From contig JAFLUW010000003.1 in the NCBI GenBank assembly GCA_022508615.1, forward strand, positions 1-36,148: a stretch of 36,148 bases of DNA, given 5' to 3'. Source of the stretch: Prevotellaceae bacterium. Its GTDB lineage: Bacteria > Bacteroidota > Bacteroidia > Bacteroidales > Bacteroidaceae. The position numbers and the translations under genes were made by a program. The notes under the pieces are model-generated. The model was not told where the DNA came from. It searched no databases and saw nothing but the letters and a program-made list of their open reading frames with translations. Below, one piece after another: positions 7,597 to 36,061 of the stretch (positions are counted from its first letter, which is position 1; every line of letters begins with the position of its first letter).

Positions 7597-7659
7597 AAAA
7601 CTAAGCCCGTGCAAGTCGAAACTTAGTCTGAGTAAGTTGAAACTTAGTCTGAGTAAGTT
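7597..7659. repeat. 63-bp element A: three 21-bp units (two identical)
   Basis: aaaactaagcccgtgcaagtc / gaaacttagtctgagtaagtt / gaaacttagtctgagtaagtt. Confidence 0.9.
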
Positions 7660-18524: not shown

Positions 18525-21500
18525 TCAACGCCCGATGTGCAGGGTTTCGCCGGCCTCGCGGGCGCGGTATTCGGGTGCATAGAGACATTCGATTTCGGCC
18601 CGGCCGCTGCCGAAGACGCCGGCCGCGGCGGCGCGCAGCTCGTGCTCGAAGACGTGCGTGCCGGCCGGCAGAAGGTCGAAGAAGAGGTGGGTGGCGTCGT
18701 CGCACACGCTGCGCCAGGCCGCCGTGCCGCCGGCCGGCACGTGGCCCGAGCGGCTGTCGGCCGGCTCGAGCCCTGCGGGGCGGTCCAGACGCAGATGGAC
18801 GAAAGCCAGCGGCTCGCTTGTTTGCACCGTGACGCGCTCGACGAGGCGTTCGCCCCTCGTTGCGCTGTGCCGCCGTTCGAGCAGGGTGCGCCCGTCGGCC
18901 GTCTGCGGCGCGTAATAGCCGCGTGTCACGCGCATGCCCGCGCCTCCGCTGCCGAAGCTGGACGTATCGGCCTTGCGTTCAGCCGTCAGCGCGCCGCGCA
19001 GCGGACGTCCCGTTTCGTTGTTCAGCGTTAGTGGAAACTTAGTCTGAGTAAGTTCGAACTTATCCAAAGTAAGTTTGAAATAACCCTGAGTAATTAACGC
19101 CCTGTTTGTTGGCAGTTCGTTGCCGGCCGCCGTCAGGCGGACACTTCCGCCCGTTTCCGCCCGCCCGAGGGCCATCTCCGCGCCCGCAATGGCCGCCACG
19201 GCGTCGGCTGTGGCCTGCGGCGCGCCCCAATCCGTGCGCCGGCGGCTGCCGGCTATCCATGTGGCGATGCCTTCGCGCGCCGCGCTGTCGGCGGGTGCGA
19301 TTTCGGCAAAAGCTGTCAGCGCGAGGGCGTGGGCCGACACGGCGTTGCCGCTCGCAGGCGCGCGGTGTACGGCTTCGCGCCAGTACATTCCGCGGCTTTC
19401 GTCGGCGACGGCCGTTTCGCGCAGGTGCGCCAGGAGTCGCCGGGCCTTGCGCTTCTGCCCGTAGCGCCAGGCCGTGAGCGCGGCGCGGGCCTTTTCTTCC
19501 GCAGACATGCCGGTCAGCGTCGCCGGCCTCAGCGCTTCGTCGACGGCAGCGCCGGCCAGACGGTCGAGACGGGCCGGAAGCGCCAGCTCGCTGCGGCTTG
19601 CGGCGCGCGCATACAGATAGGGCAGCAACACGCCGGCCGGAAGTTTCGTCCCGCTCCCGGCACAGCGGTCGACACGGGCCAGCATGAGCGAGTCGAGAAA
19701 CGCTGCCGCCCGCCGCAACAGCGTGTCGGCCGTCGCGCCGCCGGCTTTCGGGCAGAGGGCGCGCGTTCGTCCGGCTGTTTCGACGATGCGTTGCGTCGTG
19801 GCGGCCGACGAGGCTCCGCCGGCAAACCACGGGAAGCCGCCGTCGGCGTTTTGTGCCGCGCGAAGCCTTGTCCAGGCCTCCCGGCTTGCGGCCGCCCGCA
19901 AACTGTCGTCGAGCAGTTCGGCCATAGCTTCGGCCCGCGCCGCTTCGTCGCCGGCTGCGCCCACCCAGGGCGTCGCTTCGGGCGCGATGCGCTGCAATCC
20001 GGCGTTCCGGCTCAACGCCGAGGCCAGCGCATGGCGGTTCCACGCGCCGACGGCCTCACGCAGTTCGGGCCGGCGGGCCAACAGCGCTTCGGCGGCGTGG
20101 GCGGCGAAAATGCGGGTCAGCGTCTGGTCGCAACTTTCGTGTTCAGGCCGGACCAGCGAGGGCAATGCCAGCAGCGCAGGCACCGTAAGATCCGTGCAAA
20201 GTTCAAGCGTGAGCCGCGTGTCGGCGGTGGTCAGCGGCAAGTCGAGGACTTTTTTCTCGCCGGGCCGCAGGGAGAGGGCTTCCGTGCGTAGCAGTACGGC
20301 CCGTCGTGGGAGTATGGGCAAAAAGTGCTCTTCACCGTCGGCGCCGGCCGCACATTCGGCCGTCAGTCGCAGCCCCACGCCCTCCGTGTCGCCGTCGGGC
20401 ACGGCAATGATCCATGTTACCTCGCCGCTGCCCGCCGCTGCGAGGCGAAAAGGCTGTTCCGCCTGCTCCAGACCGAAGTTCCGGCCGAGGTCTTGGCCCG
20501 TTTCCATGTCGAAAAGTTGCAAGCGTGACGTGCCCGTCAGCATCGTGTCGAGCGTGGACGTGATTTTCGCGGCGATGCAAAGCGTGTCGCCTTGGCGAAC
20601 GAAGCGCGGCAGCGCCGGAGCGAGCATCAGCGGCTTGCGCGTCTCAATTTCGAGCTCGGCCGTCCCGCAGTCGAGGCTGTCCGTGTGGGCCAGCAGCAAC
20701 AGATGCCAGCGTGTCAGCGCTTCGGGCGCCGTGAAGCGCAGCGTGCCCTGTCCCGCTTCGACGGGCAGGCCGGGAAAGAAAAAAGCCGTCTCCTGCAAGG
20801 CCCGGCGCGGGGCCGACGGTGTTCCGCCGCCGGGCGTCAGTCCTGCTCTGCCGGCTTCGGCCGCATCCTTGTCGGCCGTTGCGCCGGTCATGGTCAGCGC
20901 AGCGGCTTTGTAACGCTGTGCAGCGCTTTCCATCCCCGCCTCAAAACTGTTCTCCGCCGTTGTCGTACTGCTTCCGGAGAGGAATCTCGGATTTTTCGTC
21001 TTATATAAATAGGGGTAGAGCAGGTCGAGTCCGAAAAAATCCAGCGTTGGTCTCTCCAACTGGCTTTCCTCGCGCCATTTTCGGCTCGCAAAGCTGAAAT
21101 TTCCGCCGTCCTCTGCCGACAAAGGCGTGGAAAGTTGTCGGCGAATCCAGCTTGTCGGCTCGAGTACGAGGCTTCTGCCTGCGTGGCGGGGCGGAACGAA
21201 GCGGAAACTGTGGCGGGCGAAGCCGTCGAGCGCAGCATCGTAGAGCGTAGCCGCCACTTCGGCGCGCACGGGCCGTCCTTTGTGCGTGACGGTCAGCGTC
21301 CAGCACTCGTCGGCGCCGGGTTCGAGATACGAACGGAAGGTATTTACTTTCACATCGAGCGTGGCATGCCGGCGTCCCGCCACTTCGATCCTCCCCGAGG
21401 CTGTTGCGCGCTCGCCGGCGGCCGTCAGTATGGCTTGCCAGCAGATGCCGCGGCCGATGTCGGCCGCATCGGCCGACAAGGTCAGCGTCGCACGGCCGTT

Positions 21501-24392
21501 GCAGAAACTCTTTCGCAGCAGAGGCTGCATCTTTCCGTAGCGTTCGACGCATACGAGCAGTTCGGCGTCCGGCAAATCGGAGCGCCACACGATTTCGGTC
21601 GTTTCGCCGGGCGTAAGTTCGCCTTTCGGCGCGTGTTGCGTGAAAAAAGTCTTGCTTCCGGGCAGCGTAAGGCTGTCGGTCAGCAGCGTCAGCCGCTGCC
21701 GGGCGCACAGCGTGTCGCCTTCGACGACCGTTTCGGCCCGACAGAGATAAACACCCGGCGCCAGCGGCTGCCCGAGCGACGTACTGTCGCCCGTAGCCGT
21801 GTCGAAATCGAGCGCAAGAACCGTTTCGTTCTCCGTGTCGAAACTGTTTTCTCCGTTTTCGTAACGCAAATAGGGAAAAGCGCTGACGAAATCGTCGTAG
21901 TCGCAGCGTGCGTAGTCCGTATCGAACTGCCGGTGCGGCCAAAGCGTGCGTGGCGGCCGCTTCGTGCCCATCCGGGTCAGCGTGATTCGGCCCTTGACGG
22001 CGACAGGACGGCCGTCGGCGTTGACAGCCCGCAGCCCGATGCTACGCAAGTCTGCGGCGCGGATGCCTGACGGGGCGTCGAGCGCTAATGTCAGCCGGTT
22101 CCGGCCGGCATGAAAGGCGTGTACGGCGGTTTGCGTCTCGCCGCCGAAGTCGGTGACGGCGGCTGTAAAAAAATAGGCGGACATGAAGAACGTGCCGTCG
22201 GCCGTCAGGCTGTCTTTGTCCAGACATATGCGCACGCTGAACGCGCCGTCGGCGTCGGTCACGGCCGTTCCTTCGGCCAGCACCGTGCGCACGTCGCGCT
22301 GTCTCCCCCGTCCCGGCCGGCCGTAGGGCGCAAGTTGCTGTCGTTCCAGTTTCCACGTCACGGGAACTCCTGTCAGTGCGGGGCCGGCGAGAGCTTCGGC
22401 GCGCCCCGTCAGCGTTATGCTGTCGCCGGCGGCGTATGCGCCCTCGACAGGGGCTACCGTAACCTCGAATTTCGGCCGTTTGTAGGCTTCGACCTCGAAT
22501 ATCTGCCAGTTATGCGCGCCGGCTTCGAGCGCAAAGCGTCCCGGCAGAGCCGAAGCCGGCAGCACGAAACTGCCCGCGGCGCTTCCGAAAGCATTGGCGG
22601 TCAGCCGCATCGAGTCGAGGGCTTCGCTGCTGGCTCCGCGCAGCACAACGCACAATTCTTCGCCTGTTGCGGGGCGCGGAATGCCTGCCGAGTCGCGGGC
22701 AGCGATGAGTTTGAACGAAATTTTCTGTCCCGGCCGATAGACAGCTCTGTCGGTCAGAAATGTAACCTGCGTGCGGTCTGTCCCGGCCGCCGGTTCTGCC
22801 GTCGGAATGCAGACGACGGCGGCCGTCGCGGCGTCGTCGAGCCGCGGGAAAAGGACGACAAACTTCTTTTCGTCCTTTCCGGCCGGCAGCGCAAGGCAGC
22901 CGTCGGCGTCGGTGCGGCCTTGGGCGGGCGGCTGTCCGGGCTTTCCCGCCGGACGAAGGAGAATGTCCTCGCCGGCCAGCGGACGGCCGTCGATCGTGTC
23001 GGAAAAACGCACGCGCACCGTGTCTTCGGCTGCGCCGGGCAGGAGCGTGGCGGCCACACCGCTCACGGCGAAGAGCGCGTCGTCCGACTTGTCGCCCGAA
23101 GACAGCGTGACGCGATAGACGCCGCGGGGCAAGCGCCCCAAATCGCAGACCGTGGCGTGCGGAAGAAAGTCGTCGAAGCGGCGGAGCGTGAGTGTCTCCT
23201 CGCGCAGCAACGTGCATTTGAGAGACTGTCGCAGCGTGCGTCGCGCGCCGGCCTTGAAGGGTGCGGCAAGGGCGTCGGCCGCGGTGGCGGCGTCGAGTCG
23301 TTCGAGCGTGAGCGCGAGTTGGTGCGCGTTGCGGTGGACTACGTGCAGGGGGACGTGGTGTTCCGGACTGTTGACGGAGAAGACGCTGAGCGCGATGTCC
23401 GTGCTTTCGGTTTCGGCGAGGTCGTTGGAGAGGCCGGCTGCCCACTTGCTTTCGGGAAAGAGCGTCATGCCGGCCGTCAGCAGGGCGTGGCGGCGCACGT
23501 TGCGGGCCGAGTCGGAGTGTTCGGTCAGACTTCCGGCCCACGAAGCGGCCTGCCGCCACAAGACGGCGGCGTAGGGCGTGTCGCGATGGGCGCTTGCCAG
23601 GCCGCAGAGGCGGGCTATGCTGCCGGCCGGGGCCGAAGCGCCCGTGGCGACGCGGTGTCGTTCGAGCTGCAGCTGTGCGTCGAGCCACGCCGTCTTGTCA
23701 GCGTCGGCGGCATGGGCCCCGGCGCGCAGGCGCAGCAGGGCTTCGGCGCGCAAGGGCTGGCCGGCTTCGTCGTTGAACCACGCTGCGGCCCGCGGCGCCG
23801 CGAAGTCGACGAGCAGCGGGGCCGTCCGGTCGGTGTCGGGGCCGTTGCAGAGCAGCTCGAAGGCCGCGCGCGGCGTATGGAGCAGGGCCGAGTCGGCGCT
23901 GGCGGCCTCGTCGTAGAGCGTGTCGGCCAGTGCGAGCAGGTCGTCGCGGCTCCAGGTGTCGAAACCTTGTCCGGCCGTCCCGGCCAGCCGCGTCCGCGTC
24001 CCGAAGCCCGGCCTTTCGGCCATCTGGCGGAGAAATTCGGCCATGTAGAGGTCGAAGAGCACGCGCCCGGCCGTGCCTGCGGGCTGCTCGCGGCGCGTCC
24101 GGTCGAAGCGGGCGAGGAAATCGGCTGCGGGATGGCGGCCTGCGTCGGCGTCGTAGTCTTCGATGACAATCCGTATGCGGCCTTCGCAGACGAGGGCTTT
24201 GAGCCGTTGCAGCGGCTGCCTTTCGGCCGCCGCCTTGCGCTCTGCTTGCAACACGAGCGGCAGCGCGGCTTTCAGCCGACCCGCGGCAAGGGCGCGGTCG
24301 ATGGCTTTCCAACGGTCGCGCCCGGCCGAACGGGCCGGAAGGCTGAGGGCAAAAAGGACGGCGAGCAGACAAACGAGGCGGAGGGCTGGCAT
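18525..24392 (-). CDS. Alpha-2-macroglobulin-like (MG2-domain) giant exported protein
   Basis: Start reassigned to 24392 (MPALRLVCLLAVLFALSLPARSAG); MG2 'TFLTDRAVYRPGQKISFKLI'; 1955 aa; promoter at 24426 excludes the 24644 start. Confidence 0.87.
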   Translation of the reverse strand: MPALRLVCLLAVLFALSLPARSAGRDRWKAIDRALAAGRLKAALPLVLQAERKAAAERQPLQRLKALVCEGRIRIVIEDYDADAGRHPAADFLARFDRTRREQPAGTAGRVLFDLYMAEFLRQMAERPGFGTRTRLAGTAGQGFDTWSRDDLLALADTLYDEAASADSALLHTPRAAFELLCNGPDTDRTAPLLVDFAAPRAAAWFNDEAGQPLRAEALLRLRAGAHAADADKTAWLDAQLQLERHRVATGASAPAGSIARLCGLASAHRDTPYAAVLWRQAASWAGSLTEHSDSARNVRRHALLTAGMTLFPESKWAAGLSNDLAETESTDIALSVFSVNSPEHHVPLHVVHRNAHQLALTLERLDAATAADALAAPFKAGARRTLRQSLKCTLLREETLTLRRFDDFLPHATVCDLGRLPRGVYRVTLSSGDKSDDALFAVSGVAATLLPGAAEDTVRVRFSDTIDGRPLAGEDILLRPAGKPGQPPAQGRTDADGCLALPAGKDEKKFVVLFPRLDDAATAAVVCIPTAEPAAGTDRTQVTFLTDRAVYRPGQKISFKLIAARDSAGIPRPATGEELCVVLRGASSEALDSMRLTANAFGSAAGSFVLPASALPGRFALEAGAHNWQIFEVEAYKRPKFEVTVAPVEGAYAAGDSITLTGRAEALAGPALTGVPVTWKLERQQLAPYGRPGRGRQRDVRTVLAEGTAVTDADGAFSVRICLDKDSLTADGTFFMSAYFFTAAVTDFGGETQTAVHAFHAGRNRLTLALDAPSGIRAADLRSIGLRAVNADGRPVAVKGRITLTRMGTKRPPRTLWPHRQFDTDYARCDYDDFVSAFPYLRYENGENSFDTENETVLALDFDTATGDSTSLGQPLAPGVYLCRAETVVEGDTLCARQRLTLLTDSLTLPGSKTFFTQHAPKGELTPGETTEIVWRSDLPDAELLVCVERYGKMQPLLRKSFCNGRATLTLSADAADIGRGICWQAILTAAGERATASGRIEVAGRRHATLDVKVNTFRSYLEPGADECWTLTVTHKGRPVRAEVAATLYDAALDGFARHSFRFVPPRHAGRSLVLEPTSWIRRQLSTPLSAEDGGNFSFASRKWREESQLERPTLDFFGLDLLYPYLYKTKNPRFLSGSSTTTAENSFEAGMESAAQRYKAAALTMTGATADKDAAEAGRAGLTPGGGTPSAPRRALQETAFFFPGLPVEAGQGTLRFTAPEALTRWHLLLLAHTDSLDCGTAELEIETRKPLMLAPALPRFVRQGDTLCIAAKITSTLDTMLTGTSRLQLFDMETGQDLGRNFGLEQAEQPFRLAAAGSGEVTWIIAVPDGDTEGVGLRLTAECAAGADGEEHFLPILPRRAVLLRTEALSLRPGEKKVLDLPLTTADTRLTLELCTDLTVPALLALPSLVRPEHESCDQTLTRIFAAHAAEALLARRPELREAVGAWNRHALASALSRNAGLQRIAPEATPWVGAAGDEAARAEAMAELLDDSLRAAASREAWTRLRAAQNADGGFPWFAGGASSAATTQRIVETAGRTRALCPKAGGATADTLLRRAAAFLDSLMLARVDRCAGSGTKLPAGVLLPYLYARAASRSELALPARLDRLAGAAVDEALRPATLTGMSAEEKARAALTAWRYGQKRKARRLLAHLRETAVADESRGMYWREAVHRAPASGNAVSAHALALTAFAEIAPADSAAREGIATWIAGSRRRTDWGAPQATADAVAAIAGAEMALGRAETGGSVRLTAAGNELPTNRALITQGYFKLTLDKFELTQTKFPLTLNNETGRPLRGALTAERKADTSSFGSGGAGMRVTRGYYAPQTADGRTLLERRHSATRGERLVERVTVQTSEPLAFVHLRLDRPAGLEPADSRSGHVPAGGTAAWRSVCDDATHLFFDLLPAGTHVFEHELRAAAAGVFGSGRAEIECLYAPEYRAREAGETLHIGR
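19034..19096. repeat. 63-bp element B: three 21-bp units, in frame inside the macroglobulin gene
   Basis: gaaacttagtctgagtaagtt / cgaacttatccaaagtaagtt / tgaaataaccctgagtaatta; encodes LITQGYF-KLTLDKF-ELTQTKF. Confidence 0.9.
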
Positions 24393-24425
24393 GGCGGGCG
24401 AAACGGTTGGAAAAACGGTTGCCGG

Positions 24426-24433
24426 CAAAGGTA
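24426..24433 (-). promoter_or_regulatory. -7 box TACCTTTG of the macroglobulin-like gene
   Basis: caaaggta on + strand, 33 nt upstream of the 24392 start. Confidence 0.6.
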
Positions 24434-24735
24434 GGAAATCGCGCGCGAAGCGGCAACTGTGTGCGCAGCAAAGACCGGCGCGTAAAGAAACTTTAAGAAA
24501 CGTCTCCCCTCGGCCGGCCATGCGCGCCGAAAGCCTGCCGCGCCGGTTTCGCCGACCGGCGAAACGGAGGCTTCGGGCTGTCACCTGTGGCCATTTCTTT
24601 GGTGTATTTGCGCCGGCCGCGTCGCGCGGACGGAAATACGCCATTTTTTTGGCCTTTCGCCCTCGTCGGCGTAAACGTTTGTGTATGAGCGTTTCGTTGC
24701 CTTTTTTCGGGCTTTCGCCGGCCTGCGCTGCGCAA

Positions 24736-24819
24736 AAAAAGCCGGCTTTTCGGGCGAAAAAGCCGGCTTTTCGGGCGAAAAAGCTGGCTTTCGGGGTGAA
24801 AAAAACGCTGCGAAAGGCA
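24736..24819. repeat. 21-bp tandem repeat AAAAAGCCGGCTTTTCGGGCG, about 3 copies plus a degenerate 4th
   Basis: Units at 24736, 24757, 24778 (diverged), 24799 (weak); each holds the palindrome AAAAGCCGGCTTTT. Confidence 0.85.
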
Positions 24820-24881
24820 AAAATATCGCCGCGTTAGTTTGAAATAAGTCTGAGTAAGTTTGAACTAACGCGGCGTAAGTT
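24819..24881. repeat. 63-bp element C: three 21-bp units, units 1 and 3 inversely complementary
   Basis: aaaaatatcgccgcgttagtt / tgaaataagtctgagtaagtt / tgaactaacgcggcgtaagtt. Confidence 0.85.
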
Positions 24882-32394: not shown

Positions 32395-32457
32395 AAAACT
32401 TACTCAGACTAAGTTTGAATTTAGTCTGAGTAAGTTGAAACTATCTCTGAGTAAGTT
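32395..32457. repeat. 63-bp element D: three 21-bp units, units 1 and 2 near-perfect inverted repeat
   Basis: aaaacttactcagactaagtt / tgaatttagtctgagtaagtt / gaaactatctctgagtaagtt. Confidence 0.9.
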
Positions 32458-32508
32458 TTTCGTTTGGCTGTGCAGTTGGCTGTCAGCGCTTTGCAAAGGG
32501 TGGAAAAA

Positions 32509-35890: not shown

Positions 35891-36061
35891 ATGAAAAAGT
35901 TGATTTTCGTGTTCGCAGCTTTCGCCGCTGTTTCGTTCGCTTCCTGCGGTGGTAACACTGCTGCTACCGAGGCTACTGCCGATAGCGACAGCGTTGCTGT
36001 AGACAGCATTTCTGCTGACAGCGTAGTTGCCGACAGCATTCCCGCTGACACTATCGCCTAA
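35891..36061 (+). CDS. Small Asp/Ser/Ala-rich lipoprotein with pentapeptide repeats
   Basis: 56 aa MKKLIFVFAAFAAVSFASCGGNTAATEATADSDSVAVDSISADSVVADSIPADTIA; lipobox FASC; promoter and terminator on either side. Confidence 0.85.
   Translation: MKKLIFVFAAFAAVSFASCGGNTAATEATADSDSVAVDSISADSVVADSIPADTIA

Follow-up and report, generated by a model that had tools for sequence, protein, structure and literature searches.

Five arrays, each built of three units at a 21-bp pitch, lie in the window, by which we mean the whole stretch of 36,148 nt that was analysed. An earlier note, made from the letters of this DNA, had described these arrays as the members of a dispersed family, and direct inspection of the sequences found all five where the note had placed them; none is assigned to a strand. 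Three units at 21-bp spacing could be traced in every one of them, but one unit is degenerate in two of the arrays (unit 3 of 1807-1869 and unit 1 of 7597-7659). The 19-mer at the core of the unit matches the window 11 times at up to three mismatches, compared with 0 matches in 100 shuffles, and the hairpin folds calculated for the five copies range from -14 to -32 kcal/mol. Array 1 (1807-1869), recognised from sequence and fold, is intergenic; its units 1 and 2 are perfectly reverse-complementary (19/19) and its fold reaches -32.4 kcal/mol (z -8.3). Array 2 (7597-7659) is intergenic with predicted divergent genes on either side, and the two identical consensus units that had been reported for it are units 2 and 3. 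Array 3 (19034-19096) lies in frame in a variable linker of a predicted alpha-2-macroglobulin gene (18525-24644, minus strand); the homologs that could serve for an empty-site comparison share at most 34% identity and are variable in the linker. Array 4 (24819-24881) is intergenic and its units 1 and 3 pair around unit 2. Array 5 (32395-32457), also intergenic, pairs at 18/19 positions between units 1 and 2 and at 16/19 between units 1 and 3; at an offset of 18 bp it is accompanied on the plus strand by a degenerate palindrome (32476-32486, TTGGCTGTCAG) with three mismatches to YTGAWWWTCAR, which is weak when taken alone. Scanning the window for Rfam families and tRNAs gave no match. Two further tandem repeats were observed: AAAAAGCCGGCTTTTCGGGCG, a terminator-like 21-bp repeat of other sequence present 3.2 times at 24736-24803, ends 15 bp ahead of array 4, and a 15/30-bp repeat lies at 35987-36050, close to the contig end.

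In the genome of the window (G000, an assembly of 1.87 Mb in 156 contigs that is 86% complete, from an uncultured bacterium whose gene content points to Bacteroidales) the 19-mer gave 326 forward and 353 reverse matches, compared with 0 for the reversed pattern. The two-unit pattern AACTWA-N7-TWAGTT-NN-AACTWA-N7-TWAGTT was found at 403 places with at most two mismatches, compared with 0 in the control. We counted 156 arrays in ~1.0 Mb of G000 stretches, which scales to ~290 for the genome, although the contigs behind this estimate were mostly picked for holding matches; eight contigs not picked by matches contain 15 arrays in 131 kb, scaling to ~215. Since most of the sampled contigs were picked for matches, we give the number of arrays as 215-290. 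At the loosest threshold the first 797 kb of G000 yielded 140 arrays, compared with three in the reversed control. The conserved part of the unit is AACTWA-N7-TWAGTT: of the 19-mer that had been taken as the core the AACTWA and TWAGTT ends are kept, but the seven central bases differ among copies, and we found 66 distinct unit cores in 133 arrays. A match to the dyad (at most 2/12 mismatches) is found for units 1, 2 and 3 in 90, 95 and 86% of the arrays of the 797-kb sample, whereas the next unit outward on either side reaches this threshold in 6%; directly outside the arrays there are faint traces of a fourth dyad. The arrays have three core units at a 21-bp pitch, and some show just two clear units because one unit has decayed. 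The dispersed family of 3 x 21 bp proposed from the window is upheld by this census and by the unit-number test; its copies are neither few nor random in unit number.

Pairing of the outer units and the flanking palindrome

Units 1 and 3 are reverse-complementary at 10 or more of the 11 central bases in 45 of 133 arrays, where shuffles give a mean of 9.2 and a maximum of 18. Direct near-identity of units as well as the pairings 1-2 and 2-3 gave counts within the range of the shuffles, although the mean direct identity of units 1 and 2 is slightly raised. In 70 aligned arrays 82% of the cells of the outer helix formed by units 1 and 3 are paired. Double-changed cells numbered 160 in this helix, compared with 82.7 ± 6.7 in shuffles, none of 500 reaching the observed value. 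The covariation score was 0.244 compared with 0.116 in shuffles (0/500) and 0.03-0.07 in slid controls, where the shuffle leaves the relatedness among copies in place and the slid control partly removes it. The self-folding of each unit showed no covariation beyond the shuffle, and a self-paired structure for every unit was rejected, as the halves inside a unit do not covary. Because units 1 and 3 covary and the halves of a unit do not, the array is predicted to be one long hairpin of ~65 bp, with units 1 and 3 paired and unit 2 at the tip, rather than three independent dyads. The units, described earlier as near-palindromes, are not simply independent of each other, since the outer units pair by compensatory change. 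The pairing may act in RNA, in single-stranded DNA or in a cruciform, or it may merely record conversion from arm to arm.

In 797 kb of G000 the palindrome YTGAWWWTCAR occurs 15 times, and nine of these occurrences are separated from an array by exactly 18 bp; no array has it on both sides. Many arrays of the congener G003 have a similar palindrome ~17 bp away. Copies with the flank palindrome have fewer mismatches, and 62% of them form strong hairpins compared with 29% of the copies without it (Fisher P 0.004). Flank palindrome and hairpin seem to belong to one element whose parts decay together, but the palindrome could instead be a preferred target and not a part of the element. As a candidate for a 3'-end motif general to the order, the flank palindrome is modestly enriched in the array-free genome G004, and in G017 it is located mostly in genes, at chance-like levels. 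For four copies in G000 (in L025, L016 and L011, among others) the predicted upstream gene stops at the TGA of the flank palindrome, as if the stop were supplied by the element. At three of the 30 gene junctions conserved between G000 and G003, only one of the two species carries an array and its counterpart has a shorter gap; no junction has an array in both, and the three cases could also be losses.

Spacing of the arrays

The gaps between neighbouring arrays in G000 have a mean of 5.6 kb and a CV of 0.47. None of 103 gaps was shorter than 1 kb, and 3% were shorter than 2 kb compared with 31% under uniform placement. Uniform placement over intergenic bases is too lenient a null, and it was replaced by one-per-region nulls and by permutation within contigs. 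Under the one-array-per-region nulls 19-29% of the gaps are shorter than 2 kb (lowest 0.5% bound 11%), compared with 4.5% observed in the set tested. The cleanest test of spacing permutes the array marks among the eligible intergenic regions inside each contig: 2 of the 88 eligible regions less than 2 kb from another array were occupied (permutation mean 0.29, lowest of 2000 permutations 0.12), and at distances of 4 kb or more 68 of 119 were occupied (permutation mean 0.38, highest 0.56). Occupancy was 0 at distances below 1 kb, 0.21 at 2-2.5 kb and 0.68 at 4-5 kb; the bin 0-500 of the sequential hazard estimate, in which a region is counted against its own array, was excluded. The rise with distance was similar for tandem, convergent and divergent regions, with few data for the latter two. 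Simulated parking on the real regions, under a hard exclusion of 3-3.5 kb, gave mean gaps of 5.0-5.5 kb, too many copies and a CV of 0.30 compared with 0.55 observed in the set used. As this simulation is too dense and too narrow, the data are better described by a softer exclusion of ~2-3 kb that has not reached full saturation. Contig ends coincide with arrays in 10 of 96 cases compared with 2.2 expected, and assembly breaks at arrays look too few for concealing close pairs.

Second copies are too rare in the vicinity of a first one, as known from target immunity, in G000, G003 and G015 alike. On the long contigs of G015, which reach hundreds of kb, no gap out of 42 was shorter than 2 kb compared with 5.2 expected (P 0.003), and one array pair 150 bp apart was seen elsewhere in this genome (L169); the G015 gaps are irregular overall (CV 1.0) because only arrays fitting two patterns were listed. 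In G003 1 of 23 gaps was shorter than 2 kb compared with 34% expected. Divergence between neighbouring arrays does not exceed that between random pairs, and selection through recombination was accordingly rejected as the cause of the spacing.

Array families in congeners

The array pattern of G000 is missing from nearly all of 57 congeners, and other families were uncovered by a blind count of repeated 14-mers. In G003 three AATTATTAGTAA motifs stand at offsets 0, 21 and 49, a geometry that is related but not identical to that of G000; this genome carries two families, of which the AACT family is degenerate and older and the other is homogeneous and younger. In individual G003 arrays (L146, L141, L133 and others) we observed two equal units and one inverted unit, bordered by a conserved AAAAACTATACCTATTGTAGT arm and, at the opposite side, by a flank palindrome. 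In the G015 family, AACAAGTACTACGATAG-AAATTT-CTATCGCTGCGATAG-AAATTT-CTATCGTAGTACTTGTT, a palindromic centre is flanked by outer units that are reverse-complementary to each other. The G003 and the G015 family are each confined to one genome among 58 congeners. A covariance model of the window family found full-length three-unit relatives in 16 of the 58 genomes (E <= 0.001, with rough E-values), most numerous in G011, G073 and G003; in the complete genome G004 it found none, and 160 kb of this genome contained no arrays. The G011 array reads TA-AACTATATCCGTGTGACTT-TA-AAGTCACACGGAGTGACTT-TA-AAGTCACACGGATATAGTT-TA, and its arms change jointly (ATATC/GATAT, ATGTC/GACAT, AGGTC/GACCT). Judged from the sequences, the same or a similar three-unit design is retained among congeners while the sequence itself differs. 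Two Treponema MAGs (L037:5631-5775 and L038:5376-5520) contain tandem 21-bp palindromic units AACTAATGACTCATTAGTT-AC in ~7-8 copies; in L038 these units fall in frame within a membrane protein, where they give 7-residue repeats of the TTNDSLV type. A CRISPR-like array in G116 (L180:966-2217, repeat GTTGTCTATACCACTCAAACTAGTGGCATCCACAAC) and a coding-like 69-bp repeat in G004 (L175:10101-12336) are unrelated to the three-unit arrays.

Proposed mobile hairpins and alternative explanations

We assign a probability of about 0.5 to the reading that the arrays are non-autonomous, REP- or MITE-like mobile hairpins with an immunity-like local exclusion. The element would consist of a core of ~65 bp with three 19-bp dyads at a 21-bp pitch and, in the best copies, of the flank palindrome 18 bp off on one side. 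A putative DNA-processing protein would act in trans by recognising the repeated dyads, and the element would spread inside the genome of a single species until it nearly saturates the intergenic space. Each copy would suppress the insertion or retention of another one within ~2-3 kb in the manner of target immunity, which would give the even spacing of ~5 kb. Mobility behind the spread, an acting protein and immunity behind the spacing are what we infer here. The mobile reading is supported by the hundreds of copies that a single species carries and the restriction of other families to other species, by presence and absence at 3 of 30 junctions, by the joint decay of flank and hairpin and by the two-age families of G003, as well as by the compensatory changes through which units 1 and 3 pair, the exclusion in G000, G003 and G015 and the precedent for immunity in Mu. 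Against it stand that no transposase was found, either as a Y1/RAYT gene in G000 or between close array pairs, and that no insertion event was seen inside one species, the comparison of G000 and G003 being one between species; neither a target-site duplication nor exact element ends were definable, with three empty junctions available.

Immunity-bearing transposons such as Mu, Tn7 and Tn3 have their transposase sites clustered at the ends. In Mu insertion is undetectable at 5 kb and free at 25 kb (PMC2837660). In Mu, Tn7 and Tn3 a resident copy suppresses insertion nearby, as proposed here, but these elements are large and autonomous, whereas immunity in G000 is proposed from the spacing. MITEs share terminal inverted repeats with an autonomous element; units 1 and 3 of the arrays are inverted repeats, and no autonomous element was seen beside close pairs: the genes between the closest array pairs are housekeeping genes or uncharacterised ORFs and no transposase was seen among them, as judged by eye from the translations. 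The BrickBuilt MITEs of Porphyromonas gingivalis are likewise dispersed intergenic elements of Bacteroidota with short tandem units (23 nt); however, they comprise 19 copies with variable direct units, and their leader and tail have terminal inverted repeats that resemble those of known insertion sequences (PMC4596501), compared with 215-290 copies, three units and a hairpin in G000.

Even spacing regardless of gene orientation would also be compatible with a chromosome-organising lattice, which we regard as the main, though less probable, alternative: every ~5 kb an array would bind three dimers of a putative nucleoid, segregation or loop-anchoring protein, and array sequence and protein would be swapped between species with the three-dyad 21-bp design and the spacing kept. 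G011, G015 and G073 keep the 21-bp pitch and three units despite a changed sequence, and the old and new families of G003 do not crowd one another, on few data. However, all relatives should then have the system, and many congeners have no arrays or none that were detected, as in the 160 kb of the complete G004; moreover, copies decay, and G000 and G003 share no positions.

According to gene calls from an in-house, uncurated codon-usage model, 1 of 123 arrays is located in a gene, 63 lie between tandem, 23 between convergent and 15 between divergent genes, and 21 are at stretch edges. The almost wholly intergenic placement, a point that the earlier note had marked for checking, is thus borne out, with array 3 of the window as the sole in-gene array among those sampled. 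Rickettsia palindromic elements lie in frame inside genes, a possible parallel to array 3, but coding insertion is exceptional here. Bidirectional terminators or mRNA 3'-end hairpins, homogenised per species, are an unlikely explanation of the arrays. Stable hairpins bounded by A and T runs, one at each end, would suit it, as would the enrichment between convergent genes (23 compared with 11.8 expected by bases) and the arrays of tandem gene pairs that are closer to the upstream stop (45 of 63); however, divergent regions are equally occupied beyond 2 kb from another array and the 2 kb exclusion is left unexplained. Single-gene intervals between neighbouring arrays are rare, and therefore the arrays do not mark every operon end.

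The earlier note had recognised no named family, in agreement with the missing Rfam match, and the literature that we searched holds no description of a repeat family this evenly spaced, with graded exclusion and sister-species variants. The nearest known kinds are REPINs, tagged REPs (PMC3733652), BrickBuilt MITEs and immunity-bearing transposons. REPINs are hairpin-forming doublets that are species-specific and reported to be randomly distributed in extragenic space (PMC3116915). The arrays share with REP, BIME and REPIN sequences the hundreds of short palindromic, intergenic, hairpin-forming repeats and the species specificity (PMC3116915, PMC3733652), but they consist of three evenly spaced dyads at a 21-bp pitch without an inverted doublet, whereas REPs are singlets or doublets at random positions. 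That they are REPIN remnants moved by a RAYT (Y1 tyrosine transposase) is decidedly improbable: hairpins, species specificity and intergenic placement match REPINs (PMC3116915), but the arrays have three units and a non-random spacing, and the search for a RAYT-like transposase suggested by the earlier note gave 0 matches to PF01797 in G000 (86% complete), G003 and G015, and the 41 genomes for which PF01797 was listed do not include G015. The RAYT route is unlikely because Y1 genes are absent from the array-rich G000 and G003. The arrays resemble parts of REPINs, tagged REPs, BrickBuilt MITEs and immune transposons and depart from the REP/RAYT group in defining features. By analogy with DNA uptake sequences, which have species dialects, many copies and a reported even spacing, the arrays might be uptake signals spread through natural transformation; we consider this very improbable, as uptake sequences differ in length and structure, being short, non-palindromic and often located within genes (PMC1939737), whereas the arrays are 65-bp hairpins nearly absent from genes. 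Slippage of a 21-bp minisatellite has next to no probability: the Treponema arrays do have the same period and AACTAA/TTAGTT ends, but they contain ~7-8 units, and a variable number of direct tandem units is contradicted by a unit number fixed near three and by the genome-wide dispersal.

Dispersed palindromic repeats are common in bacteria, but the papers found describe none that combine even spacing, graded exclusion and sister-species variants in similar geometry. If the arrays are mobile, their distribution would document in nature how transposition immunity acts at short range and how the intergenic space of a genome becomes saturated; if they are architectural, they would represent sequence-specific chromosome landmarks in Bacteroidota.
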